NCBI RefSeq assembly: GCF_001746835.1
Contig: NZ_CP016094.1
Coordinates: forward strand, 3,301,501-3,365,500
DNA: 64,000 nt
Source: Lacunisphaera limnophila
GTDB taxonomy: Bacteria > Verrucomicrobiota > Verrucomicrobiia > Opitutales > Opitutaceae
Reading direction: 5' to 3'
Made by a program: the position numbers and the translations under genes
In this document: one piece after another, positions 11,033 through 28,208 of the stretch
How positions within the stretch are numbered: the first letter of the stretch is position 1
Layout: every line of letters starts with the position of its first letter
The notes under the pieces: model-generated
What the model saw: the letters and a program-made list of their open reading frames with translations, nothing else
Databases searched by the model: none
Told to the model about the DNA's origin: nothing

Positions 11033-12628
11033 TCAACCGGCGGGCGGAGCGGGTGGGGGCGGACCGGTGAGATTGCCGTCCGCGTCGAGGGAGAGGGGTT
11101 GGGTGAAGTCGGCGACATAGCCCTTGGTCCAGAACCGGCCGGTTTCCCGCCACGTGGGCAGGTCGGTGAATTTGAATTCAAAGACCACGATGCGGATCAT
11201 CGTGGCGGGCCGATCCTCGAACGGGTCGTCGCGGAAGAGGCCCATCACGTCGGGGTTGCGCCGGAGCAGTTGCCGGGCGACCCCCGGCAGCACGGGGGAC
11301 TGCTCGTAGAGCGCCAGCTGCAGGGACGATTCGAAGCGGGCGAAGCGCGGGGCGAGGAACGGCGAGATCCGATCTTCGAGCTGTGGTTTGTAATGGAAAA
11401 GGTAGGGGCGCCAGGTGGCGCCGCCGTCGTTGGAGCCGGCGAATTCGACCTCGAGCTTGGTGGCAGGGAAACTGGCGAAGGGCACGTAGGCGTTGGCGAG
11501 GCGGAAATCGCGGAACAGGTAGTCGACGGGGCGTTCGCGAGGGTCGGGCTTGCCGATCACGGTCCGGCCCGTGGCCTCGACCACGAACGCATGGAGGCCC
11601 AAGCCGAAGTGCAGCCAAAGCAGCGCGGTCAGCCCATGGTGCATCCAGCGGCGGGACGGCGCCACCTTGGCGGCCGGGGCGCCTTCGAACCAGGCGGCCA
11701 GGCGTGACGCGCGCAAACGGCGGGCGGCGGCGGCCAACATCTGGTCGTCGAGCAGCAACAGGCCAAGGGCGATGGCCGCGGTGTTGAGCCAGCCGAAATT
11801 CCCGGTCAGCTGGATGCCGCCCTGCAGGGCGACCCAGAGCCCCAGCGCCACCCAGCGTCCCCGCGCCCCACCGAACACGGCGAGCAGCGGAGCCAGCAAC
11901 TCCGCGGCGAAGGTCAGGCCGATCTCGCCCACGTGCCAGGCATGGGGCAGTTGGTGGTCGAAAAAGCCGAGGATCGTCGGGGCCGGGCTGGTTTCGTACA
12001 TCACATCCAAGGCAGTGAAGTCGCGCCAGTGGGTGTCGCCGGCGAAGGCCTTGATCAGCCCGGAGCCGAACATGATGCGGAAAAGCAGCCAGCGCATCAT
12101 GAAGACCGCGAGGGCACTGGGCGGGCGGGACGCGCCCAGTCCGGGCCGCAGCCCGGCGGGCGCAAAGACGATGGCCAGCAGCGCGGTCTCCAGCATCAAC
12201 TGGTCGATGATGGTGGGGGAGAACAAGCCCCAGGTGGAAACGAAGGATAAGAAGCAGGCCCAGCAAGCAAACAGGGCCATGCGTGGCCACAGGTTCAGCA
12301 CCAGTGCCGCCGCCGCGCCGAGCCCGGTCCACGTGAGCAGGGTGATCATGCCGGGGCCGGAGCTGACCCAGAAGAGACTGGGGGCGCGGATGAACCGCTC
12401 GAGCGGGTGGGGGAATACCTCGCGCAGGTGCGCGCAGAAGCGTTCGACCGGGGCCAGTCCGTCGGGACCGATCAGGGCGCGGCCCTCGGTGTGAATGCCC
12501 CAGAAGATGAGCAGGTACACGATACCGATGGCCCGCAAGACCAGCCAGCGGGGCCAGAGGTAGGTGGCGCGGCCGTCGCGGGCCGCGAAGTTGCCGAGTT
12601 CGAGCCAGGCGCGGCGAAGGAGAGTCAT
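11033..12628 (-). CDS. Lipase maturation factor (LMF1)-like membrane protein
   Basis: 531 residues with several membrane segments in the first ~340 positions. Visible family features are WPRWLVLRAIGIVYLLIF at the first segment, FWVSSGPGMITLLTW, LMLETALLAIVFAP, MMRWLLFRIMFGSGLIKAFAGD and TSPAPTILGFFDHQLPHAWH. The soluble C-terminus has ATKLEVEFAGSNDGGATWRPYLFHYKP and ends PPAPPAG. In animals LMF1 helps fold lipases in the ER. The bacterial role is unknown. Confidence 0.85.
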   Translation of the reverse strand: MTLLRRAWLELGNFAARDGRATYLWPRWLVLRAIGIVYLLIFWGIHTEGRALIGPDGLAPVERFCAHLREVFPHPLERFIRAPSLFWVSSGPGMITLLTWTGLGAAAALVLNLWPRMALFACWACFLSFVSTWGLFSPTIIDQLMLETALLAIVFAPAGLRPGLGASRPPSALAVFMMRWLLFRIMFGSGLIKAFAGDTHWRDFTALDVMYETSPAPTILGFFDHQLPHAWHVGEIGLTFAAELLAPLLAVFGGARGRWVALGLWVALQGGIQLTGNFGWLNTAAIALGLLLLDDQMLAAAARRLRASRLAAWFEGAPAAKVAPSRRWMHHGLTALLWLHFGLGLHAFVVEATGRTVIGKPDPRERPVDYLFRDFRLANAYVPFASFPATKLEVEFAGSNDGGATWRPYLFHYKPQLEDRISPFLAPRFARFESSLQLALYEQSPVLPGVARQLLRRNPDVMGLFRDDPFEDRPATMIRIVVFEFKFTDLPTWRETGRFWTKGYVADFTQPLSLDADGNLTGPPPPAPPAG

Positions 12629-12990: not shown

Positions 12991-15681
12991 ATGAAGGCTA
13001 AGTCTAGACCCATCCACGCGTTGTTCGTTTCAGCCCTGATGCTGTCCCCCGCGGCGCTCCTTGCCCAAGTGAAGCCCGCCGACACCACCAAGCCGGCCGA
13101 GCCGATCCTTGTATTGGAGAAATTTGTCACCGATGGAAATGTCAACGATCCCCTCGGCGTGATGCCGACCACGCCGAACGGATCGGCCTTCGGATTCGAC
13201 AAGACCATTTTGGATACTCCGCGCTCGGTCTCGGTCATTAGTGCCGACGTAATCGACAAGATGTCGCTCTCTGCCGTCGAGGACCTCGTGCGCGTGGTGC
13301 CCGGCGTCTTCACGGTCACCCGTTTCGGCATCCAAGGCGCGATCGACGTCCGAAACGTCCCAGCCGACACCTATTTCCGCGGCATGAAGCGCATCAACCT
13401 CCAGGGTCACGGTCGCTCGGTGCTCGCCGCTATGGACCAGATCGAGGTCGTGAAGGGCCCGCCCTCGCCGATCTACGGCATGGGCAAGATTGGCGGCTAC
13501 ACCAATATGGTGCCGAAGGCCGGCCGCGCCAAGACGGGCGCCTATCTCACCGAGAATGAGGGTACCATGCAGCTCACGCTGGGCAGTTACAACAAGTTCG
13601 AGGCCACCTTTGGCTATGGCGGCCCCCTGTCGGTCGCGGGTAAGAAGGGTGGTTTTTATGTATATGGCCTGGTGGAAGATTCGGACGCCTTCGTGCAGGA
13701 TGTTGGGGTGACGCAGAAGATCATGCAGGCCGCGGTGAGTCTCGATGACGCCGTCGGCAAGATGCGCCTCGAATCCGGATTCAGCTACCAGCTTGGTGGT
13801 ACGGCGGGTGGTTTTCCTGGCCGCATCACGCAGGACTGGATCGACAACGGCACCGTCATCACCGGTGTGCCGCTGAAGAATCTCGACGCGAACGGCAACG
13901 GGTCCGTCGGTTACTACGAACTCTACCGCGGTTCCCCGGTGCGGGGCAACCTGAGCGGCAACAACGCCCCGCTGAGCCAGCGCTTCAACTGGCCGCGTGA
14001 TCCCAACGGCAACTACTACGCGCTCGGTTCCTTCCCGACCGTGGCCGGCATCCCGCGGACCATGTACGACTACCTCGTCGCCAATCCCGCAGCTGATCCG
14101 ACCGGTCTGTTGCGCGCCCAAGGCGTGGGTTCGCCGCTGCCGACTTCCGCCCAGCTCCCGATCGGCTTCGTGCTCGATCCCCGAACGGTGGGCACCGCCA
14201 CCGTCGACTATAGCCGCGCTAGCGCCTACGAGCGCGACCTGGAGGCCGAGTTCATCGTGGGTTACATCGACCTCATCTACGATCGTGACCCGGACTTCGG
14301 TTTCAAAAACCAGCTCTTCTTCGACAGCCAGGACCAGTACAAGGTCTCCAACACCCCCAGCGGCGGCAAACAGGACGTCTACGTGATCGAGAACAAGTTC
14401 ACGATGACCAAGCGTTTCACCCGACTGCCGGACTGGGTTGAGGTCAACAGTCTTGTGTCCGCCAACGTACGCGGCACGCGTTCCACCGGCTACCGCTGGG
14501 GTGGTGACTTCGGCGGCGGCTACCGGGTCGACGCCACGCTGCCAGTCGCGGTGTACGACAACTTCACGCACGCCTTCGAGAACAACGACATCAACAATGA
14601 CGGTGCCCCCTGGACAAGCCGGTATCGCACGCTGTACACCGAGGTTGGCGGCGGCGTGCTCCTCGACATCGACCTGTTCTCCAAGCTGAACGTCATGGTC
14701 GGCGGTCGTATCGACGGTTCAGAGGCTGAGAATCTCAACGTCGCTTCTTTCAACGCCAACACTGGCACTTCTGCCAATCCCGGCCGCATGAATACGGCTG
14801 ACGAATACGCCAAGGGCTGGGACCGCGGCGGCTCTTGGAGCGCCAGTTTGAGCTACAAGGGCATTCCGAAGGTCGTGCCTTATGCGACCATCGGACGGTC
14901 CAGCCTGACTCTGGAGTCGAACAACAATAGCCTCGACAACGCGGTGATCAACGCCGGCCACATCGGTGAAGGCGAAATCCTCGAGGCTGGCATCAAGACC
15001 AGCCTCCTGAAGAATACCGTCTTTGTCACGGTCGCGGCGTTCGAGCAGACGCGCACCGACGTCAGCCCTAATTCCGATTCTTCCATCATTAGTGCCGAAG
15101 TCTCATCGACGAAGACGCGAGGCACCGAAATGGAAATCAAGTGGGTGCCGAACAAGGCATTCTCCGCCTCGGCCTATGCCTTGGTGCAGCGTACCACCTA
15201 TGAACCCATCACGGCCGGTACGATCTGGCTAAACGCCAGCTGGCTCGGATTCAAGGATGTCGTTGATCCCGCCACCGGTCAGATCATCTACTACGCCGAC
15301 GCCTTCGGTTACGGCGGCAAGCTGAACTTGGTCGTGCCGCAGGAAGTAGCGGTGCAATACGATGTGAAGCAGGGCGTCCCGGAAAACCAGTTCGGCCTGA
15401 ACACGATCTATACGCATGCGAGCGGCTTCGGTTTCACGCTGAGCGGAAACTACTTCGCCTCGACCTACTCGGGCCGCTTCAAGCTGCTCAAGCTCCCGCC
15501 GACCCGGACGGTGAACGTGGGCCTTTTCTACCGGCTCGGCGACTGGCGCGCCAAGGTCGACGTCTTCAACGTCACCGATGACGTCAGCTTCCGCGCCCGC
15601 AGTGGCGGCAACGGCAGCGAGACGCTGCTCACGGTCAATCCCGAGCGCCGCTACCAATTCACCATCAGCCGCGCCTTCTGA
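12991..15681 (+). CDS. TonB-dependent outer-membrane receptor
   Basis: 896 residues from ATG at 12991, chosen because it gives a signal peptide (MKAKSRPIHALFVSALMLS, cleavage near ALLAQ). A possible TonB-interacting segment is LVLEKFVTDGN (41-51). The plug domain is about 70-190, with DTPRSVSVISADVID, VEDLVRVVPGVFTV and IEVVKGPPSPIYGMGKIGG, a siderophore-receptor-like style. The rest is a 22-strand-type barrel ending in YQFTISRAF with the C-terminal Phe required for outer-membrane insertion. It imports a ligand using the proton motive force. Ligand unknown. A terminator separates it from three secreted hydrolase-like genes. Confidence 0.93.
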   Translation: MKAKSRPIHALFVSALMLSPAALLAQVKPADTTKPAEPILVLEKFVTDGNVNDPLGVMPTTPNGSAFGFDKTILDTPRSVSVISADVIDKMSLSAVEDLVRVVPGVFTVTRFGIQGAIDVRNVPADTYFRGMKRINLQGHGRSVLAAMDQIEVVKGPPSPIYGMGKIGGYTNMVPKAGRAKTGAYLTENEGTMQLTLGSYNKFEATFGYGGPLSVAGKKGGFYVYGLVEDSDAFVQDVGVTQKIMQAAVSLDDAVGKMRLESGFSYQLGGTAGGFPGRITQDWIDNGTVITGVPLKNLDANGNGSVGYYELYRGSPVRGNLSGNNAPLSQRFNWPRDPNGNYYALGSFPTVAGIPRTMYDYLVANPAADPTGLLRAQGVGSPLPTSAQLPIGFVLDPRTVGTATVDYSRASAYERDLEAEFIVGYIDLIYDRDPDFGFKNQLFFDSQDQYKVSNTPSGGKQDVYVIENKFTMTKRFTRLPDWVEVNSLVSANVRGTRSTGYRWGGDFGGGYRVDATLPVAVYDNFTHAFENNDINNDGAPWTSRYRTLYTEVGGGVLLDIDLFSKLNVMVGGRIDGSEAENLNVASFNANTGTSANPGRMNTADEYAKGWDRGGSWSASLSYKGIPKVVPYATIGRSSLTLESNNNSLDNAVINAGHIGEGEILEAGIKTSLLKNTVFVTVAAFEQTRTDVSPNSDSSIISAEVSSTKTRGTEMEIKWVPNKAFSASAYALVQRTTYEPITAGTIWLNASWLGFKDVVDPATGQIIYYADAFGYGGKLNLVVPQEVAVQYDVKQGVPENQFGLNTIYTHASGFGFTLSGNYFASTYSGRFKLLKLPPTRTVNVGLFYRLGDWRAKVDVFNVTDDVSFRARSGGNGSETLLTVNPERRYQFTISRAF

Positions 15682-15686
15682 TCTCC

Positions 15687-15726
15687 CGCGCCGGTCTCCT
15701 TCCGGGACCGGCGCGACTCTTTTTCA
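15687..15726 (+). terminator. Rho-independent terminator after the receptor gene
   Basis: CGCGCCGGTC at 15687-15696 pairs with GACCGGCGCG at 15706-15715, followed by ACTCTTTTTC. It lies six bases after the receptor stop. It may attenuate rather than block expression of the hydrolase genes, the first of which starts at 15748. Confidence 0.75.
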
Positions 15727-15747
15727 ACCGTCCCTCGCTCCCTTCCC

Positions 15748-17163
15748 ATGGCCCGTTTATCTACTTTCCTGACTTGTCCCGTGGTCGCCCTGCTGGCGAT
15801 CGCCTCCCCGTTGCACGCCGATCCGGCGGCCGTGGAGAAAAAAATCCATGCCTTGCTCGACCAGGACAAGATCTTCGCCTCCTTGCCGGGGGCGGACTTC
15901 TTGTCCTTGGGCGTCGGCTTCGAATTGCCGGATGGGGGCAAGCAGGTCACCGCGCTCGCGCTGGCTGCTCCAGGCGGGGCGTTTGATCCGCGTGATCTGG
16001 AGAAGTTTCCCGCCGCCACCCTCGGTTACGAGGCCAAGTGGTGCGTGGAACGCTTCAAGTTCTACAATATGGATTGGGACATCACCGGTCTGCGCCTGAC
16101 CTCGCTCGATCCGGAAGCGAAGAAGTACCCGTGGCTGGTGATCATGAACGGTGGCGCCGCCAACGTTTATGAGTTCTACGTGGACCTGAAGAGCCAGCCT
16201 GGCTGGGGCCAGTTTCTCGCCCAGAAGCTCAACGTCATGATCGTGTCCATTCCGGGCAATTTCAAATACGGCGGATGGAAAGAGCCGATCGAGAGCAATG
16301 ACCGCCAGCCGGCCTACCTGTTGAACCAGGATCTCCCGATGGCCGAGAACAACGTCCGCCACGCCATCTATACCAACCGTCTCATCATGCACGGCCTCGA
16401 GCAGCTCATGATGAAGCACACGACGGGCGATCTCTTCATGATCGGCCATTCGACCTCCGGCGAACTGGCTTTCCTCTCCTATGAGTACCCGGCGCTGGCC
16501 GCCCGTTTGAAGGGCCGTTTCCTCGGCTGGGGCTCGGGTGGTCCCGCCCGCGTCCACGCCATCCGGGCCGTAAAGGAGCCGGAAAAGGGCCGCGGTTACG
16601 GCGGCGAGCGCAAGCCGCCGGCCCTGCACGAACTCAACCGCCGCAGTGCTTCGGGTTACAGCGGTGGCTACAGCCGCTGGCTCAACCCGCTCTACGTGGC
16701 CGGCGACTCCACCTACCAGATCGCCGAGAAATGGATGGCCGCCGAGGGTGTCCGTCGCCCGATGTTCAAGCAGCCCTTGCAGGACCTCGAGCATTCCGCC
16801 GCCGGCTGGAGCCGGATCGGGGATGTCACCCGCCAGATCGAGGTGCTCCTCGCCGAGGCCGGCAATCCCTGGGGCGTGAACATCGACGAGGTCCAGAAAG
16901 ACCTGTTCTCCACCGCCTACACCCGCATGGACGGCTTCAACCAGATGGTGTGGTGCGTCGCGCACTACGACCGCAACCACTGGGTGCCGGAGACCCCGAT
17001 GGACAGCTGGGAGGTCTTCCTTGCGAAGGAATTTCGCCTGAAGAACCCGGACGCCAAGGTCCGCATCATCGTCTGGGACCTGCCCATGACCCACTACGGC
17101 CACGTTGAGAAACCCCAGCAACTCGCGGCCGCCTTCTACAGCGTCGTGCGCTGGTACAAATAA
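15748..17163 (+). CDS. Secreted alpha/beta hydrolase-like protein, paralogue 1
   Basis: 471 residues with a signal peptide (LTCPVVALLAIASPLHADP). The fold looks like an alpha/beta hydrolase. The core strand before the oxyanion loop is WLVIMNGGAANVYEF (about 129-143), the nucleophile elbow is MIGHSTSGEL with Ser235, and the C-terminal His region is WDLPMTHYGHVEKP (443-456). A conserved YSGGYSRWLNPLY and a VAHYDRNHWVPE stretch may shape the pocket. The elbow reads G-H-S-T-S rather than the usual GxSxG. It is clearly homologous to the next two genes, and I do not recognise a named family. Probably periplasmic or exported. Confidence 0.75.
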   Translation: MARLSTFLTCPVVALLAIASPLHADPAAVEKKIHALLDQDKIFASLPGADFLSLGVGFELPDGGKQVTALALAAPGGAFDPRDLEKFPAATLGYEAKWCVERFKFYNMDWDITGLRLTSLDPEAKKYPWLVIMNGGAANVYEFYVDLKSQPGWGQFLAQKLNVMIVSIPGNFKYGGWKEPIESNDRQPAYLLNQDLPMAENNVRHAIYTNRLIMHGLEQLMMKHTTGDLFMIGHSTSGELAFLSYEYPALAARLKGRFLGWGSGGPARVHAIRAVKEPEKGRGYGGERKPPALHELNRRSASGYSGGYSRWLNPLYVAGDSTYQIAEKWMAAEGVRRPMFKQPLQDLEHSAAGWSRIGDVTRQIEVLLAEAGNPWGVNIDEVQKDLFSTAYTRMDGFNQMVWCVAHYDRNHWVPETPMDSWEVFLAKEFRLKNPDAKVRIIVWDLPMTHYGHVEKPQQLAAAFYSVVRWYK

Positions 17164-17183
17164 GCCCCTTTCGCTCCACCACC

Positions 17184-18626
17184 ATGAAATCCCTTTTTTC
17201 CGTCCTCACGCTGGCGCTCGCCGCCGGCCCGGCTCTTGCCGATTACTCGGGCGGCAAGATCGCCTCGCTGCTCGACCAGCCCACGAGTTATGTGATGCTC
17301 TCCGAGACCGACTTCCGCGCCCTCGACATGGGCGTGCTGCCCGACGGCGGTAAAACCGTCACGGACCTCGCCTTGGCCGCCCCGGGCGGCGCCTTTGACC
17401 CGCGGGATCTCGCGAAGGTCGACCCGAAGATTCTCGGATACAAGGCCGACTGGTTCGTCGAGCGGTACACCCGGTACAACCTGCCCTGGGACATCGGCGG
17501 GTTGCGCCTGACCAGCAACGACCCCGAGGCCAAAAACAAGCCCTGGGTCCTCATCCTCAACGGCGGCGCGGCCAACATCTACGAGTTCTTCATCGACCTG
17601 AAGAACCGGCCGGGCTGGGGCCAGTTCCTCGCCCAGAAGCTCAATGTGCTGATCGTTTCGATCCCCGGTAATTTCAAATATGGCGGCTGGGCCGAGCCGA
17701 TCGCAACCCGCAAGCCCGCGTTCCTGCTCGACCGCGATCTCACGGACGACGAGGAGCTGGTCTACAACTCGGTCTTCACCTTCCAGGTCATCCTGCAGGG
17801 CCTGAAGCAACTGGTGGTCAACCACACGACCGGCGACCTGCTGATCGTCGGACACTCGACCGGCGGCGAGCTGCCCGCGCTGGCGGAGACCGATCCCGAG
17901 CTCAAGGCCCGCCTCAAGGGCCGCTACCTCGGCTGGGGCTCGGGTGGCCCGGTCAGCCTCAAGGCGGTGGTCTCCGCCCAGAAGGCCGCCAATCCCGACT
18001 ACAAGGCTCCGCCCACGCTCACCGGGGGCGGTGGCGGCGAAGGTGGCGAGCGCAAGTGGACCGAGCCCGGCCCGTTCTGGATGAACGTCATGGCCCGTCG
18101 CACCCCCACGGTCTACGCCCGCACCTACAGTCGCTGGCTCAACCCGCTCTATGAGACCGGTGATTCGGTCTTCACCATCGCCACGAAATGGCTCGATGCG
18201 GAAGGTCGGCGCCGCGCGAATTTCAAGCAGCCGCTGCAGGACCTCGAGCACAGCGACAACTTTGACATGAAGGGTGAGGTCGAGGTCGCCATCGAGCGGG
18301 CCCTGGCCAAGACCGGCAATCCCTGGAAGATCAACGTCGAGGATGTCCAGAAGGATCTCTGCTCGACCAGCTTCGCCCCGACCACCGGGTACAACACGAT
18401 GGTCTGGTGTGTCGCCAAACTCGACGGCCATTGGAACGCGCTTTACCCGGGGCAGGGGGGCGACGTCACCCTCGCCAAGGAGTATCTTCGGCGCAACCCG
18501 ACGGCCAAGGTCCGGGTGATCGGCTGGGACCTGAACATGACCCACTATGGTCACGTCGAGCTCCCCGAGCAACTCGCCGCCGGTGTCGTCGATGTCGTCG
18601 ACTGGATGATGAAACAGGGCTCCTGA
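17184..18626 (+). CDS. Secreted alpha/beta hydrolase-like protein, paralogue 2
   Basis: 480 residues with a signal peptide (LTLALAAGPALADY). It has the same architecture as its neighbours: WVLILNGGAANIYEFFID (121-138), IVSIPGNFKYGGW, and MTHYGHVELPEQLA near the C-terminus. The elbow here is the canonical G-H-S-T-G with Ser225, unlike paralogues 1 and 3. A Gly-rich insertion (TGGGGGEGGERK) follows the elbow region. It is the most diverged of the three. It starts 20 bp after paralogue 1 and ends 20 bp before paralogue 3, suggesting one transcript. Substrate unknown. Confidence 0.75.
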   Translation: MKSLFSVLTLALAAGPALADYSGGKIASLLDQPTSYVMLSETDFRALDMGVLPDGGKTVTDLALAAPGGAFDPRDLAKVDPKILGYKADWFVERYTRYNLPWDIGGLRLTSNDPEAKNKPWVLILNGGAANIYEFFIDLKNRPGWGQFLAQKLNVLIVSIPGNFKYGGWAEPIATRKPAFLLDRDLTDDEELVYNSVFTFQVILQGLKQLVVNHTTGDLLIVGHSTGGELPALAETDPELKARLKGRYLGWGSGGPVSLKAVVSAQKAANPDYKAPPTLTGGGGGEGGERKWTEPGPFWMNVMARRTPTVYARTYSRWLNPLYETGDSVFTIATKWLDAEGRRRANFKQPLQDLEHSDNFDMKGEVEVAIERALAKTGNPWKINVEDVQKDLCSTSFAPTTGYNTMVWCVAKLDGHWNALYPGQGGDVTLAKEYLRRNPTAKVRVIGWDLNMTHYGHVELPEQLAAGVVDVVDWMMKQGS

Positions 18627-18646
18627 ACCGCTCGCAACACTCTAAC

Positions 18647-20101
18647 ATGAAATCACCCTTCCGTATTTTTACGCTGGCCGCCATTGGTTGCCTGCTGGCC
18701 GGCACCGCCCTCGCGACGCCTGAAGTTGAAAAGAAGATATGGGCACTCCTCGATGACCCGAAGTCCGTGTACGTGTCATTGGACACGCCGTCCTTCATGT
18801 CGCTCGGGGCGGGCTTCGAGTTGCCCGACGGCGGCAAGCAGGTCACCGCCCTGGCCCTCGCGGCCCCCGGCGGGGCCTTTGATCCGCGGGACTTGGAGAA
18901 GATCCCCGCCGCCTCGCTCGGCTATGAGGCGAAGTGGTGCGTTGAGCGCTACAAGCACTATAACCTCGATTGGGATATCACCGGCCTGCGCCTGACCTCG
19001 CTCGATCCCGAGGCGAAGAAGTACCCGTGGCTCGTGATCATGAACGGCGGTGCCGCCAACGTGTATGAGTTCTATGTGGACCTGAAGAACCGACCGGGCT
19101 GGGGCCAGTTTCTCGCCCAGAAGCTCAACGTCATGATTGTGTCCATCCCGGGCAATTTCAAATACGGCGGGTGGGATGAGCCGGTGAAGAGTGAGCTGCG
19201 CCAACCGGCCTACCTCTTGGACAAGGAGCTCTCGATGGAGGAATACGAACTCCGGAACTGTCTTCTCACGAACACCAACGTGATGAAGGGCCTGAAGCAG
19301 CTGCTGATGAAGAACACGACGGGAGACCTTTTGCTGATCGGTCACTCGACCTCCGGTGAAATGGCAATGCTGGCCAACAACGATCCCGAACTGCGGGCGC
19401 GGACCAACGGGAGGTACCTCGGCTGGGGGTCAGGTGGCCCGGCCCGTCTGGACCGGGTTCGTGAGGCTCGCGAGGGAGTGTCAGCCGGTGAAGATTCCGC
19501 CCGTCCGGCCCGGGCGGTCGCGGCCGGGAGCACGCCGCCCGGACCGCGCGAGCGCACGCCCTTGCACAAGCTTTCCCGTCGAGATGCCAAGGGGTACTCG
19601 GGCGGGTACAGTCGCTGGCTGAATCCGCTCTACGAACCCGGCGACTCCACCTACCAGATCGCGGAGAAGTGGATCGTGGCCGAGGGACGCCGCCGGGCGC
19701 AGTTCAAGCAGCAGATTCAAAGCATCGAACACGGCGGCGGAATCGACCTCAAGGGCTGGATCGAGTATTCGATCGAGCAGATCCTGGTAAAGACCGGTAA
19801 TCCCTGGGGAGTGAACCTCGAGGAGGTCAGCGCCGAGCTGTTCTCCACCCATTACACCAAGATGGACGGCTATGACCGCATGGTCTGGACGGTCGCCCAC
19901 TACGACCGCAACCACTGGGTGCCCGAAGATCCGATGAAGAGCACCGAGGTCTTCTTCGCCAACGAATATCGCCGGGTGAATCCGAAGGGGGAGATCCGCC
20001 TCATCGTGTGGGATCCGCTGATGACGCACTACGGCCACGTCGAGCTGCCGCAGCAACTGGCCTCGGCTACCTACAGCGTGGTCCGCTGGCTCGACCGGTG
20101 A
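18647..20101 (+). CDS. Secreted alpha/beta hydrolase-like protein, paralogue 3
   Basis: 484 residues from ATG at 18647. The frame is open further upstream inside paralogue 2, but this start gives the signal peptide (IFTLAAIGCLLAGTALATP). It is closest to paralogue 1, with long identical blocks such as GYEAKWCVERY, LRLTSLDPEAKKYPWLVIMN and the elbow IGHSTSGE (Ser234). It has an extra Ala/Arg/Pro-rich insertion at about 270-305 between the elbow domain and GYSGGYSRWLNP. It ends with MTHYGHVELPQQLA and is followed by a strong terminator. Confidence 0.75.
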   Translation: MKSPFRIFTLAAIGCLLAGTALATPEVEKKIWALLDDPKSVYVSLDTPSFMSLGAGFELPDGGKQVTALALAAPGGAFDPRDLEKIPAASLGYEAKWCVERYKHYNLDWDITGLRLTSLDPEAKKYPWLVIMNGGAANVYEFYVDLKNRPGWGQFLAQKLNVMIVSIPGNFKYGGWDEPVKSELRQPAYLLDKELSMEEYELRNCLLTNTNVMKGLKQLLMKNTTGDLLLIGHSTSGEMAMLANNDPELRARTNGRYLGWGSGGPARLDRVREAREGVSAGEDSARPARAVAAGSTPPGPRERTPLHKLSRRDAKGYSGGYSRWLNPLYEPGDSTYQIAEKWIVAEGRRRAQFKQQIQSIEHGGGIDLKGWIEYSIEQILVKTGNPWGVNLEEVSAELFSTHYTKMDGYDRMVWTVAHYDRNHWVPEDPMKSTEVFFANEYRRVNPKGEIRLIVWDPLMTHYGHVELPQQLASATYSVVRWLDR

Positions 20102-20146: not shown

Positions 20147-20182
20147 CAGGCGGTGGTCGCAAGACCACCGCCTGTTTCTTTT
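20147..20182 (+). terminator. Rho-independent terminator after the hydrolase cluster
   Basis: CAGGCGGTGGTC at 20147-20158 pairs perfectly with GACCACCGCCTG at 20163-20174 around a GCAA tetraloop, followed by TTTCTTTT. This is a textbook intrinsic terminator closing the three-gene hydrolase unit. Confidence 0.9.
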
Positions 20183-20420: not shown

Positions 20421-22678
20421 CTAAGCGGGAACTGCGCCGGCGGCCTGGAAAGCAGCGACGAGCGCCGGGCGGGTGAAGGGAATCGTGCGGACGCGGACGC
20501 CCGTGGCATCGAATAGGGCGTTGCCGATCACGGCCGCCACGGGGCGGGTGGCGGGCTCGCCCGCACCGTACAATTTGGTGTCGGGGCGGTTGTTCAGCAT
20601 GACCACGTCAACGGCGCCGGGGGTTTCGGTGCTGTTCAGGATCGGGTATGTCACCCAGTCCCGGCTGAGGACCTCGCGTGCATTGAACTGCACCGCCTCG
20701 TGCAGGGTGCGGCTCAAGCCCTGCACCAGGTTGGCCTCAATCGTGCCGAGCAGGCTGCTTGGGTTGATCACGTGGCCGCAGTCGTGGGCCACGACAAAGC
20801 GCTTCACCTTAAGCTCACCCGACTCGAGGTTGACGGCTACTTCCGCGACGAGCGCCACCATCGTGCCATTGCGCGGCGCGTAGGCGATGCCCGGCCGGTG
20901 CGCCACGGGCCGCTCTGGTCCGGCTTGGGCGATGGCCGCGTGTCCCAACCGGCCCGTTCCGCGGCGGCCTGCACGACCGCCCGGTCGCGGGCACCCTTCA
21001 GATATTTCAGACGGAAGGCAACGGGGTCGGAGCCCGCGATGGCCGCGAGTTCGTCGATGAAACCCTCGCTGGCGAAACACACAGCCATGCCATCCGGGTC
21101 ACGCAGGTGTGCCGTGCGCAGTCCGGTGCTGAGCGTGTGTTCCCACGGGATGAGGTGGGAAACCTTCCGCTTGTGGGGGAAAGCGTAGGACTCGGCGGAG
21201 AATTGAAAACGGTCGGTGCTCTTGGTCGGCAGACCGCCGATGAGCTGGGCCGACAGGGCATCGCCCGGTTCCGACGTGCTGGAGGGGCGCACCCGGCCGG
21301 AAAAGCCGCGGGCCTCGTAGTCGAAGGCGAGGACCGCGCCCTGTGCGTCGAGTCCACCGCGGAGGCGCACAGTGATGGGCGGTCCTTTCGGATCCCACGC
21401 CGTGCCGTCGGCACGCATGTATTGCACGCGCACCGGGCGGCCAACGGCCTCGGATAGGATGACGGCATCCATCGCGGCGTCGTCGGCGTCATTCATGCCG
21501 TAGGAACCGGGCCCCGGCAGCCAGATCACGCGTACGTCGCTGGCCGGTCGATTCAGCCAGCCGGCGGCGGCCGTGCGGAGCGGGTAGGGCTTCTGGCCGC
21601 CCATCCAGACGGTCACACCGTCGGCGCGCACGTCAGCCACGCCGCAGCCCGGGCTCATGCAGGCATGCGATTGGAACGGATATTCGTAGATCGCCTCGAG
21701 CCTCGTGGCGGCCGCAGCCAGGCCGGCCTCAATATCACCGGTGGCCCCCTTCTCGGTCTGGGAGCTTTTCGGGGTTGCGCCAAGGAGGTGGGCATACAGG
21801 GCGGAGTAGCTTTCCGGGAAAAGCGCTTCGCCGTCGGTCCATTTCACCTGTAGTTGCTCGGCGGCACGCACCGCCTGGTATTCCTCGGTGCAGACGACGG
21901 CCACAAAGTCCCCGCGGGTTACGACCCGCACCAGGCCCGGGAAATCCTGGCCCGGGACTACCGCGACTAGGTGGGCGTTGGCGTGGGGCGGACGGATCAC
22001 CCGGCCGTGCACCATGCCGTCCAGCTTCAGATCCACCAAGTACGTGTACGCGCCGGTTACCTTCGGCGGGATGTCCGTGCGCGGGACGGCCTGGCCCACG
22101 ATCGTGTAGTCGGTCGGCGGTTTCGGTGTGGCGGTATCCGTGAGCGTCAGTTCGAAACGCTGGCCGCCGATCAGCTCGCCATAGGTCACGGAGCGGGACA
22201 GATCCGAGCGCAAGCGGATCACGCCGGCCGAGACAATGAGGGCGTCGGCGGAAACGCCCCAGCGCGCGGCGGCCCGGGCGATTAGTTCGCGGCGGGCCTC
22301 GGCCGCGGCCTGGCGCAACGCGGGCACACCCTGCATGATGCCATTGCTGGAGCCGGTTCCACGCTGGTCGACAGTGGTAGCGGTGTCACCCATGCGCAGG
22401 GTTACGTGGTCGAGGGGGACATCAAGCTCCTCGGCGACGATCATGGCGAAGGCGGTGCTGACACCCATGCCAGCCTCGATCTTGCCCACGGAGGCGAGCA
22501 CGCGACCATCGGGTTGCACGGCGAGCCAGGAGTCGAGCTTCGTGGGATCGACCAACGGGCCACTGTCGCCGCCCTCGTCGTCTTCGGCGCCGCGCAGCGG
22601 AAGCGCAAAAGAGACGAGGAGCACGCCGGTGGCGTGCAGAAAGCCGCGCCGGGTCCAACGGGAATCGGGGGCGTTCAT
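20421..22678 (-). pseudogene. Molybdenum hydroxylase large subunit (IorB-like), frameshifted
   Basis: Starts at ATG 22678, overlapping the small-subunit stop, with a Tat signal (TRRGFLHATGVLLVSFALPL). It resembles the large subunit of isoquinoline 1-oxidoreductase-type xanthine dehydrogenase-family enzymes, which bind molybdenum-cytosine-dinucleotide cofactor. Segments include RMGDTATTVDQRGTGSSNG, YPFQSHACMSPGC and VLRVKRFVV-type strands near the C-terminus. The frame breaks near 20890-20892. Adding one C to that run (a G on the coding strand) restores TGRGIAYAPRNGTMVAL and a 752-residue protein ending at the 20421 stop. It could be a true disrupted gene or a homopolymer sequencing error. Confidence 0.85.
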
Positions 22679-23157
22679 GATGCGGCCTCCGCCGCCAGCG
22701 TGGCGGCTGCTCGCTTGACTGCCCGCAGCAAGCTCATGTGCGTGCCGCAGCGGCACTGCAGTCCGCTGAGAGCCTCGGCCAACTCGGTGTCGGTGGCGCG
22801 GGGGTTGGTGCGGAGGAATGCCGCGGCGGTCATGATCCAGCCGTTGATACAGTAGCCACATTGGGCGGCCTGTTCGTCCACAAAGGCAGCCTGCACGGGG
22901 TGCAGCTTATCGTCCTGGGCGAGGCCTTCGAGGGTGGTTACTTCCGCTCCGCCGACGATGCCCACCGGGAGCACGCAGGAGCGCACCGCGACGCCATCGA
23001 TATGGACGGTACAAGCGCCGCATTGGGCGAGTCCGCAGCCAAAGCGAGGTCCCTTCAGGCCGAGGGCATTGCGGAGGACATAGAGCAGCGGGGTGTCGGG
23101 ATGGTCGGTCACCGGGCACGCGCGGCCGTTGACCTTCAATTCGAGGGGGAGGGACAT
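22675..23157 (-). CDS. (2Fe-2S)-binding subunit of molybdenum hydroxylase (IorA-like)
   Basis: 160 residues. The plant-type [2Fe-2S] site is C41, C46, C49 (CGLAQCGAC) and C61. The second, helical [2Fe-2S] site is C100, C103, C135 and C137 (QCGYC...QCRC). This is the electron-transfer subunit of two-subunit enzymes that hydroxylate N-heterocycles or oxidise aldehydes. No FAD subunit is nearby, so electrons probably go to another acceptor, as in IorAB-type enzymes. It overlaps the large-subunit start by 4 bp and follows the RND pump gene by 13 bp. Confidence 0.93.
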   Translation of the reverse strand: MSLPLELKVNGRACPVTDHPDTPLLYVLRNALGLKGPRFGCGLAQCGACTVHIDGVAVRSCVLPVGIVGGAEVTTLEGLAQDDKLHPVQAAFVDEQAAQCGYCINGWIMTAAAFLRTNPRATDTELAEALSGLQCRCGTHMSLLRAVKRAAATLAAEAAS

Positions 23158-23170
23158 GGTAGGTTCGGAT

Positions 23171-26100
23171 TCAGGCGCGGTGTTCCGCGGGGGCCAAAGT
23201 GGGCAAGATAGGAGTGGTGGGAGCCGGCGCGGTGGCGGGCTGGTCGCACCCGGTCAACAGCAAGTAGACGGACGGAATGACATAGAGCGTCAGCGCGGTG
23301 CCGACGACGAGGCCGCCGATCACGCCGATGCCCATCGAGACACGGCTCTCGGCCCCGGCGCCCAGCGCGAGGGCGATCGGCAGCACGCCGAGGATGGTCG
23401 CGATGGTCGTCATGAGAATGGGGCGCAGCCGCAGGTCGGCGGCCTCGAGCACGGCCTCGCGGGGCGCGACCCCGGCGTGCTGGCGTTGCTGGGCGAATTC
23501 GACGAGGAGGATGCCATTCTTCGTCACGAGGCCCACCAACATGATCATGCCGATCTGGCTGAAAATGTTTATGGTCTGGCCGCAGGCCCACAGCGCACCG
23601 AGCGCCCCTGCGAGGGCGAGCGGTACCGTGAGCATGATGACGAACGGGGCGCGCCAGCTTTCGAACTGCGCGGCGAGCACCAGGAATACGAAGGCCAGGG
23701 CCAGACCGAAGCTCATGAGCAGGCTCGAGCGGCTCTCGGCATATTCCAAGGCGCCACCGGTTAGCGCGGTATTCAGGCCCGCCGGGAGCGTGGACGCGGC
23801 CACCCGGTTCATGGCATTGATACCGTCCTCGAGGGTGTAGCCCGCCGCCAAACGGGCCGACACGGTCGCTGCAATCTGGCGGTCGTAACGGAAGCGCTGG
23901 GGTGCGGCGATGGCTTCATCGACCTCGACCAGGTTGTCGAGGGTCACCAGCCTTCCTCCGGGAGCGTGCACGCTGAGCTGGCTGAGGATGCCGGGATCGG
24001 TGCGGAATTCATCCGCGACCTGCTGCACGACCTCGTACTGACGTCCGTCACGGTTGAAGTAGCCCACGCGTTGGGCTCCGAGTGAGGTTTGCAGCGTCTG
24101 GGCGACATCGGTCGCAGAGATTCCCATGGTGTGGAGGCGTTCGCGATCAAGGCGCACCTGCAATTCCGGCCGGGTGAACTTCAGATCCACCTCCACGCTG
24201 GAAAAGGCGGGCTCGTTCTCCAGCGCCTCCATGAATGTGGGCAGTCCGTCGCGCAGCTCCGGGAGGTTGGTGGCGCGGACCACGAACTGCACGGCGTTGC
24301 CGCCGCGGCGGTTGCCGATACTCGGCTCCTGGGAGACGCTGAAGCGCGCGCCCGGGGTGCGGCGCGTCAGACGGGTGAGGCGTTCGGCGATGTCCGCCTG
24401 GGAGGCTTTGCGTTCGGATTTCGGCTTCAGCACCAGCTCGATGAGGCCGGTGTTGGCGACCCCGGTGCCGCTGCGCGCGCCGGAGGCGGGCACCTGGCAG
24501 TTTATGAGGGCGGCCTCAGGGGTGTCCCGGTCGATGCGTTTCGCCAGATCCTCCATGAGGACCAGCATGTAGTCGTAGGAAGCGCCCTCGGGGCCGGTCG
24601 CGGAAATCGTCACGCGGTTGCGATCCTCCAACGGTGCGAGCTCAGACGGCAGGTTGCGGTAGAACAGCGCGATGAGCACAAAACTCCCCGCCAGCACGGC
24701 CGCGGTGACCCAGCGCCGCGGCAGGATCCAGACGAGGCTGTGGCGGTAGGCGTCGCGGAGCCTTTGCACGAGGGCGTTGAATCCACCGACGATCCGGCCC
24801 TGGCTGACCTGGGCGTGGCCCATGCGCGCGGCCATCATCGGGGTGAGGGTGAGGGCGACGAAGGCCGAGATGGCCACGGAGCCGGCGATCACCAGGCCGA
24901 ACTCCCGGAACAGGCGTCCGGTTGCGCCTTGGAGAAACACGATGGGGGAGAACACGGCGATCAGGGCGAGGGAGGTGGCGATCACGGCCACAAAGACCTC
25001 GCGTGTGCCCTCGGCCCCGGCCTCGAGCGGGGCGAGCCCTTCCTCCTGCTTGCGGTGGACGTTCTCGACCACGACGATGGCGTCGTCGACCACCAGGCCG
25101 ACCGCGAGCACGAGACCCAGCAGGGTGAGCACGTTCAGCGAGAAGCCGCAGACATACATCACGAAGCAGGCGCCGATCAGTGAAATGGGGATCACCACGG
25201 CGGGCACGAGGGTCGCGCGCCAGGAGCCGAGGAAGAGGTAAATCACGCCGACCACCAGCAGGAGGGCAAGGACGATGGTCTCCCGCAGCTCGGTGATGGC
25301 GTGGCGCACGAAGCGGGTGTTGTCGGAAGCGATCTCCAGGGTGACATCCGGGGGCAGGGATTGCCGGAGGGCCTCGAGGCGTTTGAAGGCCTCGTCGGCG
25401 ATGGCGATCTGGTTGGCGCCCGGCTGGGCCCGCAGCGCGAGGCCCACCATGGGTACGCCGCGCAGGGTGAAGGAAATCCGCTCGTTGAGCGGGGCAAGCT
25501 CGGCGGTCCCGATGTCACCGAGGCGCACCACCTGGTCGCCGGACGTCCGGATGGCCATGCGGTTGAACTGTTCCGGCGTGGCTAGGCGGGCGACGGCCTG
25601 CACGGTCATCTCGGCCTGGCTGTTCTCGATGCGACCGCCGGGCAGCTCAACACTCTCGCGGCGCACGGCGGCCTGGACATCGAGCGCGGTGAGACCGTGG
25701 GCGGCCATCCGGTCGGGGTTCAGGCGCAGCTTCATCGAGTAACGTTTCTCGCCGAGGATGTCGACGGCGCCGACCTGGGCGATGGTCTGCAGCTGCTCCT
25801 TGACGCGGTCGGCTACGTCGGTGAGCGACATGAGGTCGCGACCGGCGCTGCGCAGCACGAAGGTAAGCACGGTGCCGCCGTCGGCGTCGGCCTTGGAAAT
25901 GAAGGGAGGGTCGACGTCGCGTGGCAGGAGACGAACGGCGCGCCCCACCTGGTCGCGCACGTCGTTGGCGGCGGCATCAAGGTCCACGCCGAGCTCGAAT
26001 TCGACGCGGATGCGACTGGCGCCGTCGCGGCTGGTCGAAGTGAGTGACTTCACCCCTGCGACCGTGTTGACGGCTTCCTCTATGGGTTCGGTGATCTGCG

Positions 26101-26281
26101 CCTCGATCGCCTCGGCGTTGGCGCCGCTGTAGTTCGCGTTGATGGAGATGACGGGAGAGTCGGTCGCCGGATATTCGCGGATCCCGATCAGGCGCAGGCC
26201 GATGAGGCCCAGGAGGGTCACTACGGTGGACAGGACGATCGTGAAGACCGGCCGGTGGATGCAGACTTCGTGCAGGCGCAT
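23171..26281 (-). CDS. RND efflux permease, HAE1/AcrB type
   Basis: 1036 residues, the normal size for hydrophobe/amphiphile RND pumps. The first membrane segment is VFTIVLSTVVTLLGLIGLRLIGIREYPATDSPVI. Porter-domain features include GRAVRLLPRDVDPPF. The proton-relay motif is LAVGLVVDDAIVVVEN in TM4, with the paired Asp. The second half repeats the layout (QIGMIMLVGLVTKNGILLVEFAQQ). It takes substrates from the periplasm or inner membrane to an outer-membrane channel. The adaptor gene is 5 bp upstream. No outer-membrane factor lies in the operon. Confidence 0.95.
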   Translation of the reverse strand: MRLHEVCIHRPVFTIVLSTVVTLLGLIGLRLIGIREYPATDSPVISINANYSGANAEAIEAQITEPIEEAVNTVAGVKSLTSTSRDGASRIRVEFELGVDLDAAANDVRDQVGRAVRLLPRDVDPPFISKADADGGTVLTFVLRSAGRDLMSLTDVADRVKEQLQTIAQVGAVDILGEKRYSMKLRLNPDRMAAHGLTALDVQAAVRRESVELPGGRIENSQAEMTVQAVARLATPEQFNRMAIRTSGDQVVRLGDIGTAELAPLNERISFTLRGVPMVGLALRAQPGANQIAIADEAFKRLEALRQSLPPDVTLEIASDNTRFVRHAITELRETIVLALLLVVGVIYLFLGSWRATLVPAVVIPISLIGACFVMYVCGFSLNVLTLLGLVLAVGLVVDDAIVVVENVHRKQEEGLAPLEAGAEGTREVFVAVIATSLALIAVFSPIVFLQGATGRLFREFGLVIAGSVAISAFVALTLTPMMAARMGHAQVSQGRIVGGFNALVQRLRDAYRHSLVWILPRRWVTAAVLAGSFVLIALFYRNLPSELAPLEDRNRVTISATGPEGASYDYMLVLMEDLAKRIDRDTPEAALINCQVPASGARSGTGVANTGLIELVLKPKSERKASQADIAERLTRLTRRTPGARFSVSQEPSIGNRRGGNAVQFVVRATNLPELRDGLPTFMEALENEPAFSSVEVDLKFTRPELQVRLDRERLHTMGISATDVAQTLQTSLGAQRVGYFNRDGRQYEVVQQVADEFRTDPGILSQLSVHAPGGRLVTLDNLVEVDEAIAAPQRFRYDRQIAATVSARLAAGYTLEDGINAMNRVAASTLPAGLNTALTGGALEYAESRSSLLMSFGLALAFVFLVLAAQFESWRAPFVIMLTVPLALAGALGALWACGQTINIFSQIGMIMLVGLVTKNGILLVEFAQQRQHAGVAPREAVLEAADLRLRPILMTTIATILGVLPIALALGAGAESRVSMGIGVIGGLVVGTALTLYVIPSVYLLLTGCDQPATAPAPTTPILPTLAPAEHRA

Positions 26282-26286
26282 GACGG

Positions 26287-27411
26287 TCAGCGGACGGGCG
26301 AAGAGTCGACGGCGGCGCCGGCGCGGACCAATTGCGTGCCGGCCACGATAACGACATCGCCCTGATGCAGGCCGGCGGTGATGAGCACCGAGTCCGCGCG
26401 CCGGAGGCCGGTCTGGACGACCTGACGCCGTGCCTTGCCATCCTCGACGACGAAAACCGATTTTTCCCCGGCCTCGGCCTCGAGCGCGGTCGTCGGGATC
26501 ATGACGGCGTGCTCGTGGCGCATGATGGGCACGGTGACCCGGGCGAAAGCGCCGGGGATGAGCGATTCATCGGGATTGGGCGCGCGGGCCCGGATCAACC
26601 GGGTGCGGGTGACCTCGTCGAGACGTGGTTCGACGGCGTACACCTCGGCGGTGTAGACCCGGTCCGAACCGGCCACCGCGAAGGTCACGCGGCTGCCGGG
26701 GACGAGCACGGCGGCATGCTTTTCGGGCACGGTGAAGTCGACCTTCATGCGGCGCAGGTCCTGCAGCGTAGTGAGGCGCGTGGTGGGGGAGACCTGGGCA
26801 CCCTCGCTGATGCTGCGCAGGCCGATGACCCCGTCGAACGGGGCGCGAATCTCGGTACGGGCGAGCTGGGCCTTGATGAGCTCGACCTCGGCCCGGAGCA
26901 CGCTGACCTCGCTGGCGGCGATGTCGTATTCCTGCTGAGGTACGCCACCCCGGTCAACGAGGGCGGTAATACGCCGGGTCTTGAGTTCGGCAAGTTCCTG
27001 CCGATAGACGGCACGCTGGAGGGAGGCGCGCAGGTCGGCGTCGTTGATCACCGCGAGGAGGTCGCCGGCGTGCACGCGTGAGCCCTCGGCAAAATGGATG
27101 CGCAGAAGTTTGCCGGAGGTTTCGGGCTGCAGATCGACACTCTCCTCGGCGCGCACGGTCCCGGTTGCGACAATGGATTCCTCCACCGGGCCAGACTCGA
27201 CCACGAGGGTCTGAACCGGAGTTCCCGCGCGTGGGCGCGGGGCCGACGGCGTGGATTTCGCTGATTCGGGCTGCGGAAAAAACAAAGCGAAGGCGACGCA
27301 ACCTCCGGCTGCCAATCCCAGTGCCGTGATAAGAAATCTCTTTTTCAAGTGTGCCCGTTGCTGCAGCACGAAGCATGCGCAAGTGCCACGCACCCAATGA
27401 AATCTTTTCAT
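26287..27411 (-). CDS. RND periplasmic adaptor (membrane fusion protein)
   Basis: About 374 residues. The order is an N-terminal membrane anchor (FLITALGLAAGGCVAFALFF), a lipoyl/barrel-sandwich hybrid half (ATGTVRAEESVDLQPETSGKL), a coiled-coil hairpin (about 110-170, rich in Arg, Glu and Leu), the second half (TEIRAPFDGVIGLRSISEGAQV), a beta-barrel and a membrane-proximal domain. It links the pump to an outer-membrane channel. The start is uncertain: ATG 27411 is used here, but a TTG at 27348 would give MKKRFLITALGL, a more typical N-terminus. Confidence 0.9.
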   Translation of the reverse strand: MKRFHWVRGTCACFVLQQRAHLKKRFLITALGLAAGGCVAFALFFPQPESAKSTPSAPRPRAGTPVQTLVVESGPVEESIVATGTVRAEESVDLQPETSGKLLRIHFAEGSRVHAGDLLAVINDADLRASLQRAVYRQELAELKTRRITALVDRGGVPQQEYDIAASEVSVLRAEVELIKAQLARTEIRAPFDGVIGLRSISEGAQVSPTTRLTTLQDLRRMKVDFTVPEKHAAVLVPGSRVTFAVAGSDRVYTAEVYAVEPRLDEVTRTRLIRARAPNPDESLIPGAFARVTVPIMRHEHAVMIPTTALEAEAGEKSVFVVEDGKARRQVVQTGLRRADSVLITAGLHQGDVVIVAGTQLVRAGAAVDSSPVR

Positions 27412-27521: not shown

Positions 27522-28208
27522 ATGAAAAACGCCAAACTCCTCATCAGCGGGCTGAGCCTCGCTCTCACCCTGGCCGCCGCTGCGCCGGTCGCCGCCGCCA
27601 CGACCGATTGGTCGGGCTGGATGGAAAACTATTATCTTAATCCGGAGGCCGACAAGGTGGTCCCGGCGGTCTACGCGCTGAGCCGCTCGGGCCACTTCGA
27701 GCAGGAAGGCCAGACGGCCGCCGCCATCGGCTTCTTGGGCGCGGTTTTTGCGCAAAACCCGGACCGGGCGGCCGATTGGATGTATCAATTCCGCCAGCTG
27801 CCGGCCGCCCACCAGCGCCTGGTGGCGGCCGCGTTGTGGTACTCCGGCCTGCCGGAGGGCGTCGAGGTGGTTCGTCAAGCGGCCCAGGGCACGAGTGCCG
27901 ACATCCGCACCGATGTGGAGAACCTGATGGCCTGGCAGCAGCCGGTGCTGAGCGAGACCCCGGTGCAGTCGGTCTCCTCCCTGAACCTGCAGTGGGGCGC
28001 ATTCCTCGCCAGCGGTAACCCGCAGCACATCGTCAAGGTGCTCGCTGCGCTGGGTTCTGATCAGCCGGTGCTCGGCACGCAGGTGCGCATGGCCCTGGCG
28101 GAAAAGGCCCTGGCGCATCCGCGCGTGTATGAGATCTGCCAGAGTGAGATCGCCCGTCAGCCCGAGGGTGTGCGCGAGCAGCTCCGCACCGCGCTCGGCA
28201 CCCGCTGA
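27522..28208 (+). CDS. Secreted protein of unknown function
   Basis: 228 residues with a clear signal peptide (MKNAKLLISGLSLALTLAAA, cleavage near PVAAATT). The mature part is mainly helical and begins DWSGWMENYYLNPEADKVVPAV. It has further amphipathic helices rich in Ala, Gln and Trp, such as QNPDRAADWMYQFRQLPAAH and LVAAALWYSGLP. No catalytic motif or Cys pair is evident, and I do not recognise a family. It is divergent from the RND/molybdenum hydroxylase operon and followed by a terminator. Confidence 0.75.
   Translation: MKNAKLLISGLSLALTLAAAAPVAAATTDWSGWMENYYLNPEADKVVPAVYALSRSGHFEQEGQTAAAIGFLGAVFAQNPDRAADWMYQFRQLPAAHQRLVAAALWYSGLPEGVEVVRQAAQGTSADIRTDVENLMAWQQPVLSETPVQSVSSLNLQWGAFLASGNPQHIVKVLAALGSDQPVLGTQVRMALAEKALAHPRVYEICQSEIARQPEGVREQLRTALGTR

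Follow-up and report, generated by a model that had tools for sequence, protein, structure and literature searches.

Which compounds are handled by an outer-membrane receptor whose gene is followed by three homologous hydrolase genes of no named family? Loci that link such a receptor to enzymes are well known for sugars. The question is raised here by positions 12991–20101 of a 64,000-nucleotide stretch of the Lacunisphaera limnophila genome (Verrucomicrobiota, Opitutaceae; contig NZ_CP016094.1, 4.2 Mb in a single contig), the whole of which is referred to as the window. A gene for a TonB-dependent receptor and three paralogous hydrolase genes (H1, H2 and H3), all on the + strand, form a well-supported receptor-linked hydrolase locus. 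We consider it moderately probable that this unit is a catabolic locus for small amide-bearing compounds, in which the hydrolases would cleave amide-type bonds, because two separate lines of genomic context lead there: the C–N hydrolases encoded beside related receptors, and the link between the hydrolase family and amidases in other phyla.

Organisation of the receptor–hydrolase operon

An earlier, sequence-only reading of the locus had described one receptor followed by three homologous genes in the same direction, with 20-bp gaps and a strong terminator at the end, and this layout was recovered in every part and position (Table 1). The spacing is 20 bp between H1 and H2 and again between H2 and H3, and 66 bp between the receptor and H1. 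The receptor and triplet are kept in two other Opitutae genomes (loci L004 and L005), where the receptors are 71–73% identical to that of the window and the hydrolases 70–82% identical position by position, so the array is not a product of chance.

The gap between the receptor and H1 holds a perfect 12-pair hairpin followed by a T-run (–25.7 kcal/mol, z –4.6), a feature absent from the sequence-only reading, and hairpins of other sequence stand in the same gap of L004 and L005 (–18.6 and –15.9 kcal/mol). The hairpin may reduce hydrolase expression relative to the receptor, or may shield the receptor message. It could also be read as parting two sets of genes that are mere neighbours with no joint function. 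This is highly improbable given that pairing and order persist in three genera although the receptor has diverged as far as it has, and that relatives of the receptor show the same receptor–enzyme-array layout with a different enzyme (see below).

The receptor, P0001, has the plug and barrel of TonB-dependent receptors, with a match to Plug (PF07715, E = 2e-12) above the curated Pfam cut-off. Its structure model has a mean predicted local distance difference test score (pLDDT) of 70, the barrel being at medium confidence, and the best Foldseek matches were FhuA, Fiu and FoxA. Together with a weak score against the siderophore receptor model TIGR01783 (71 bits, below the cut-off of 223.5), these matches are what speaks for uptake of a ferric siderophore that the hydrolases would split in the periplasm with release of iron. 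Pyrroloquinoline quinone and copper receptors stand in the same match list, however, no siderophore genes were present among the neighbours scanned, and the related receptors described below carry amidase arrays, formamidase-like enzymes or cyclic-amide hydrolases. We therefore regard the siderophore explanation as very unlikely.

Predicted fold and catalytic residues of the hydrolases

Against Pfam and NCBIfam, H1–H3 gave nothing above cut-off, the best matches being Lipase_3 (E = 0.009) and TTHB210-like (E = 0.001), both below; no match to the amidase signature (PF01425) was found in Pfam, and a sequence search of solved structures with the hydrolase returned no useful match. A structure model based on an alignment of 35 family members from several phyla reached a mean pLDDT of 91 and a predicted template modelling score of 0.90. 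Foldseek and VIA-align placed the model among the alpha/beta hydrolases (Z 19–21 over 254–312 residues). The top matches were gastric and lysosomal acid lipases (Z 21), and near-ties among the leading rows prevent assignment to any closer family. Two claims of the sequence-only reading thus stand: that the proteins are hydrolase-like and that they cannot be placed in a named family. The secretion that it assumed would fit the hydrophobic, signal-like core at the N terminus of each.

In the model, H1–H3 have an alpha/beta hydrolase fold with a predicted Ser235–Asp408–His449 triad. All three residues, and also His452, are invariant in 35 of 35 sequences. Ser235 lies in a G-H-S-T-S/G-G-E motif after predicted strand 5 (229–233), Asp408 follows strand 7 (399–405), and His449 lies in a T-H-Y-G-H-x-E-x-P motif after strand 8 (437–444). 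We take His449 to be the catalytic histidine on the H-x4-E-x-P spacing of ordinary alpha/beta hydrolases. The triad is kept in H2, which rules it out as a degenerate enzyme. A lid of about 130 residues (266–395) is inserted between strands 6 and 7, and the N-terminal extension comprises about 90 residues. Gastric and lysosomal acid lipases and StnA share the core fold, the nucleophile–acid–histidine order and a lid between strands 6 and 7, but are only 6–13% identical to H1–H3, which differ in the N-terminal extension and in the size of the lid.

Among solved structures the nearest folds belong to lipases, esterases, epoxide hydrolases and dehalogenases, and they favour the main alternative to amide cleavage, namely that H1–H3 are esterases or lactonases in the same periplasmic receptor-linked locus. 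The enzyme exchange described below would then mark a change from amide to ester substrates, for example aromatic or plant esters. We judge this unlikely, although it is the foremost competitor. No ester-specific partner was seen at the Opitutae loci, and the one esterase-like neighbour belongs to locus L015.

Distribution of the family and divergence of the paralogues

A scan for the hydrolase family with one genome per species yielded 30 loci, spread over Opitutae, Acidobacteria, Alpha-, Beta- and Gammaproteobacteria and one Myxococcota-like genome. The hydrolase family is rare, being present in one of 388 Verrucomicrobiota genomes, two of 250 genomes of the window's taxonomic family and four of 297 Acidobacteriota genomes, and viral and plasmid searches returned no relative of the hydrolases. 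H1–H3 are the only copies in their own genome. Outside Opitutae, in Acidobacteria and Proteobacteria, the gene is mostly single-copy; one Acidobacteria genome (G410; L030 and L107–L111) has six scattered copies, one of them directly behind an amidase.

Pairwise identity among H1, H2 and H3 is 54–67%. In the tree, the sequences from the window, L004 and L005 sort by position into an H1, an H2 and an H3 clade (each with support of 100/99 or better); the triplet therefore predates the split of these three genera, and H3 clusters with the single copies from other phyla (99/98). A recent local duplication is ruled out on both counts. Between orthologues the lid is 72.6% and the core 86.1% identical; between paralogues the values are 47–54% and 68–76%. 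The paralogues thus differ most in the lid, as well as in the N-terminal extension and, for H2, in the C-terminal part. This divergence would fit substrates that are related yet different, and the division of labour put forward in the sequence-only reading agrees with three positions that are separate conserved clades.

Amidase arrays behind related receptors

When the receptor alone was used to search 250 genomes of the family Opitutaceae and the surroundings of the matches were fetched, orthologues of 53–55% identity were found in five genomes of another genus, and further ones at 34–40%. None of the genomes with these receptor relatives holds the hydrolase family. Among the next-closest receptor loci, all 13 in which the downstream side can be read (L093–L097 and L099–L106) continue into amidase-signature enzymes; a fourteenth, L098, stops at a contig end and was left out of this count. 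Each locus has between one and about eight amidases, with one in L093 and at least three in tandem in the other twelve. As the loci were chosen by receptor similarity only, the association between receptor and amidases is not circular.

The array amidases retain the Lys–cisSer–Ser triad in 55 of 55 cases, and nearly all have a signal-like core. L-asparaginases lie inside the array or at its end in L101 (at least one) and L102 (two). Very long arrays in two genomes form islands with TonB receptors that are partly covered by L104 and L105: at least 17 amidase-signature genes lie in about 48 kb of genome G088 (C1:3187847-3235542), of 28 in the genome, and at least 13 in about 48 kb of genome G711 (C1:2082778-2131874), of 37 in the genome.

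In a more distant set of 14 receptor loci, two of which are other receptors of the window's own genome, C–N hydrolases adjoin the receptor in 7 of 14. Three amidohydrolases are found by the receptor in L112 and L113, and amidases in L117, L118 and L125. In L116 (G722 C271:1-10133) the TonB receptor is followed by four tandem formamidase/acetamidase-like paralogues. In L123 (G715 C12:589000-605000) its neighbours are an NMT1-like binding protein, an AtzD/TrzD cyclic-amide hydrolase and an amidase, a set that might serve receptor-linked use of compounds resembling cyanurate or barbiturate. L124 has an amidase on the opposite strand, about 4 kb off.

One chromosomal slot with exchanged enzymes

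The receptor tree unites the three hydrolase-linked receptors in a single clade (100/100). Beside it stand the five amidase-linked receptors from the other genus (100/99), and further amidase-linked receptors fall outside under midpoint rooting. L004 and L096 share the order and orientation of TauE (79% identity), RecF-like (78%) and SIS (79%) genes, the receptor (52%), the enzymes and two small conserved downstream genes (67% and 65%). The enzyme position between them is filled by three hydrolases and an RND pair in L004 and by three amidases in L096. The same chromosomal slot thus holds either enzyme set.

The receptor is more diverged than its flanks (65–79%), so it may have changed along with the enzymes, whether through rapid divergence or through import of both in a single cassette. 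This excess divergence would fit the change of cargo that an ester-cleaving triplet implies, as would the molybdenum hydroxylase and RND genes, which go with the hydrolase version and were absent from the set of genes that it shares with the amidase loci L093–L100.

The hydrolase family and amidases outside Opitutae

The second line of context for amide cleavage comes from other phyla, where any receptor nearby is a non-orthologue, and argues against the ester alternative. Of 21 non-Opitutae genomes, six (L008, L011, L019, L022, L029 and L107) have an amidase no more than 5 kb from the hydrolase, against 0.55 expected from the number of amidases per genome (P about 2e-5). In the Acidobacteria operons L019 and L008 this amidase is 55% and 50% identical, respectively, to the third amidase of the Opitutae arrays, and a TonB-type receptor is also present. 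In L007, L010, L013, L027, L028 and L033 the hydrolase gene is preceded, immediately or almost so, by an amidohydrolase gene, called by Pfam or by similarity to Pfam-matched ones. This is a plain list of loci, of which L010 and L013 are close relatives, background frequency having been computed for amidases alone. Neighbouring TctC and branched-chain amino-acid transporter genes in some Proteobacteria were given no weight, being too common there.

The link to a receptor proposed in the sequence-only reading was therefore borne out in part. A receptor adjoining degradative enzymes is kept as a unit in all three Opitutae hydrolase loci and in all 13 of the amidase versions. In the loci outside Opitutae the hydrolases have no linked orthologue of the receptor, and the TonB-type receptors within the fetched loci L006, L007, L008, L019 and L029 are non-orthologous. 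The substrates offered as examples in that reading, ferric siderophores and plant glyco-esters, found little or no positive support. Apart from the general fold of the receptor, nothing specific to siderophores was seen, and the enzymes linked to relatives of the receptor (amidases, asparaginases, amidohydrolases and formamidase-like enzymes) point to amides.

Proposed function

From these data we infer a pathway in which the TonB-dependent receptor would import amide-bearing organic compounds across the outer membrane, and H1–H3, exported to the periplasm, would cut them through Ser235–Asp408–His449, most likely at C–N (amide-type) bonds. The ammonia or amine and the acid so freed would then be taken up. 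In this lineage an amidase array would have been replaced once by the alpha/beta-hydrolase triplet, and the three positions of the triplet would have remained distinct thereafter.

Several points weigh against amide cleavage or against a joint function. Esterases are commoner than amidases among alpha/beta hydrolases. The hairpin in the gap could uncouple the receptor from the hydrolases, and the signal peptides on which export depends were called by eye and by a hydrophobicity rule. Most hydrolase copies in other phyla have neither an amidase nor a receptor nearby. Four of the more distant receptor loci (L114, L115, L119 and L122) show no C–N hydrolase, and none was seen in L120 and L121 either; gene calls in these GC-rich loci are rough and absences less certain than presences.

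A broader proposal, which we advance tentatively and which could well prove wrong, is that Verrucomicrobia have distinct 'amide utilisation loci', on the same plan as glycan loci elsewhere in bacteria and made up of one clade of TonB receptors and interchangeable tandem arrays of unrelated C–N hydrolases (amidases, asparaginases, amidohydrolases and formamidase-like enzymes). An undescribed alpha/beta-hydrolase family would have taken the amidase slot in the window and would be a new family of amide hydrolases. The locus would in that case bring out a class of amide uptake loci that has received little notice, and would predict the activity of an enzyme family and give it the function-based name that it lacks. 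It would also predict substrates for the outer-membrane receptors of an entire clade, account for genomic islands with 17 or more amidase genes in 48 kb, supply enzymes for splitting amides, peptide amides and related man-made compounds, and provide a natural, directly testable exchange of one enzyme fold for another behind the same receptor.

Relation to known systems

The general plan of a receptor with its own enzymes is already known from the carbohydrate utilization (CUT) loci of Xanthomonas, in which a TonB-dependent receptor is encoded with degradative enzymes for the imported substrate (PMC1790865), and the present loci resemble these and glycan loci of the polysaccharide utilization type in this respect. 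They differ in that the enzymes are C–N hydrolases or an unnamed alpha/beta-hydrolase family, in tandem paralogues, and in that the receptor–hydrolase unit showed neither a sugar regulator nor an inner-membrane transporter. Literature searches, which covered the subscription literature only in part, returned no description of amidase arrays linked to TonB receptors, and the amide type of receptor-linked locus is likely to be novel.

For two array amidases the nearest solved structures are peptide amidases (PDB 1m21, 1m22 and 5ac3), enzymes of the amidase-signature type and the closest solved relatives of the proteins that occupy the position of H1–H3. H1–H3 are unrelated to them in fold and catalytic machinery; genomic position and presumed task are what they have in common. 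Type II L-asparaginase and AtzD/TrzD enzymes, which occur within or next to the arrays of related receptors, have other folds again, and neither was seen next to the window's receptor.

Neighbouring genes

Downstream of the unit, on the opposite strand, lie genes for a molybdenum hydroxylase and an RND efflux system (Table 1).

Table 1. Features of the receptor–hydrolase unit and of the genes that follow it (positions in the window).
Feature	Position	Strand	Description
Receptor P0001	12991..15681	+	896 residues; TonB-dependent receptor, Plug and beta barrel (Pfam, structure model)
Hairpin and T-run	15687..15715	+	Terminator- or attenuator-like; between receptor and H1
H1	15748..17163	+	Predicted alpha/beta hydrolase, 471 residues; S235-D408-H449; signal-like N terminus
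H2	17184..18626	+	Predicted alpha/beta hydrolase, 480 residues; most divergent paralogue, triad intact
H3	18647..20101	+	Predicted alpha/beta hydrolase, 484 residues; nearest to single copies of other phyla
Intrinsic terminator	20147..20174	+	Closes the unit; z –5.4
IorB-type subunit	20421..22861	–	Molybdopterin-binding (MoCoBD_1/2), Tat-like leader; split over two frames near 20921-20942
IorA-type subunit	22675..23157	–	[2Fe-2S] (Fer2, Fer2_2); 58% identical to L005 orthologue
RND efflux pump	23171..26281	–	ACR_tran; 67% identical orthologue beside L005 locus
Membrane-fusion protein	26287..27411	–	Of the RND pump; HlyD_D23

The frameshift in the IorB-type gene was located by tblastn with the L005 orthologue and is either a recent mutation or an assembly error. 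IorB-type molybdenum hydroxylases lie near the hydrolases in the window, L004, L005 and L007, and a joint pathway is possible, in which the hydroxylase might oxidise, for example, aldehydes or N-heterocycles.

A bacterial lipase maturation factor (LMF1-like) gene lies just upstream of the receptor on the opposite strand (11033-12628, – strand). Beyond the RND genes, positions 27522-28208 (+ strand) encode a secreted-looking protein of 228 residues with no Pfam match, which may be a mere syntenic neighbour; homologues of it are found near L004, L093, L095, L096 and L097.

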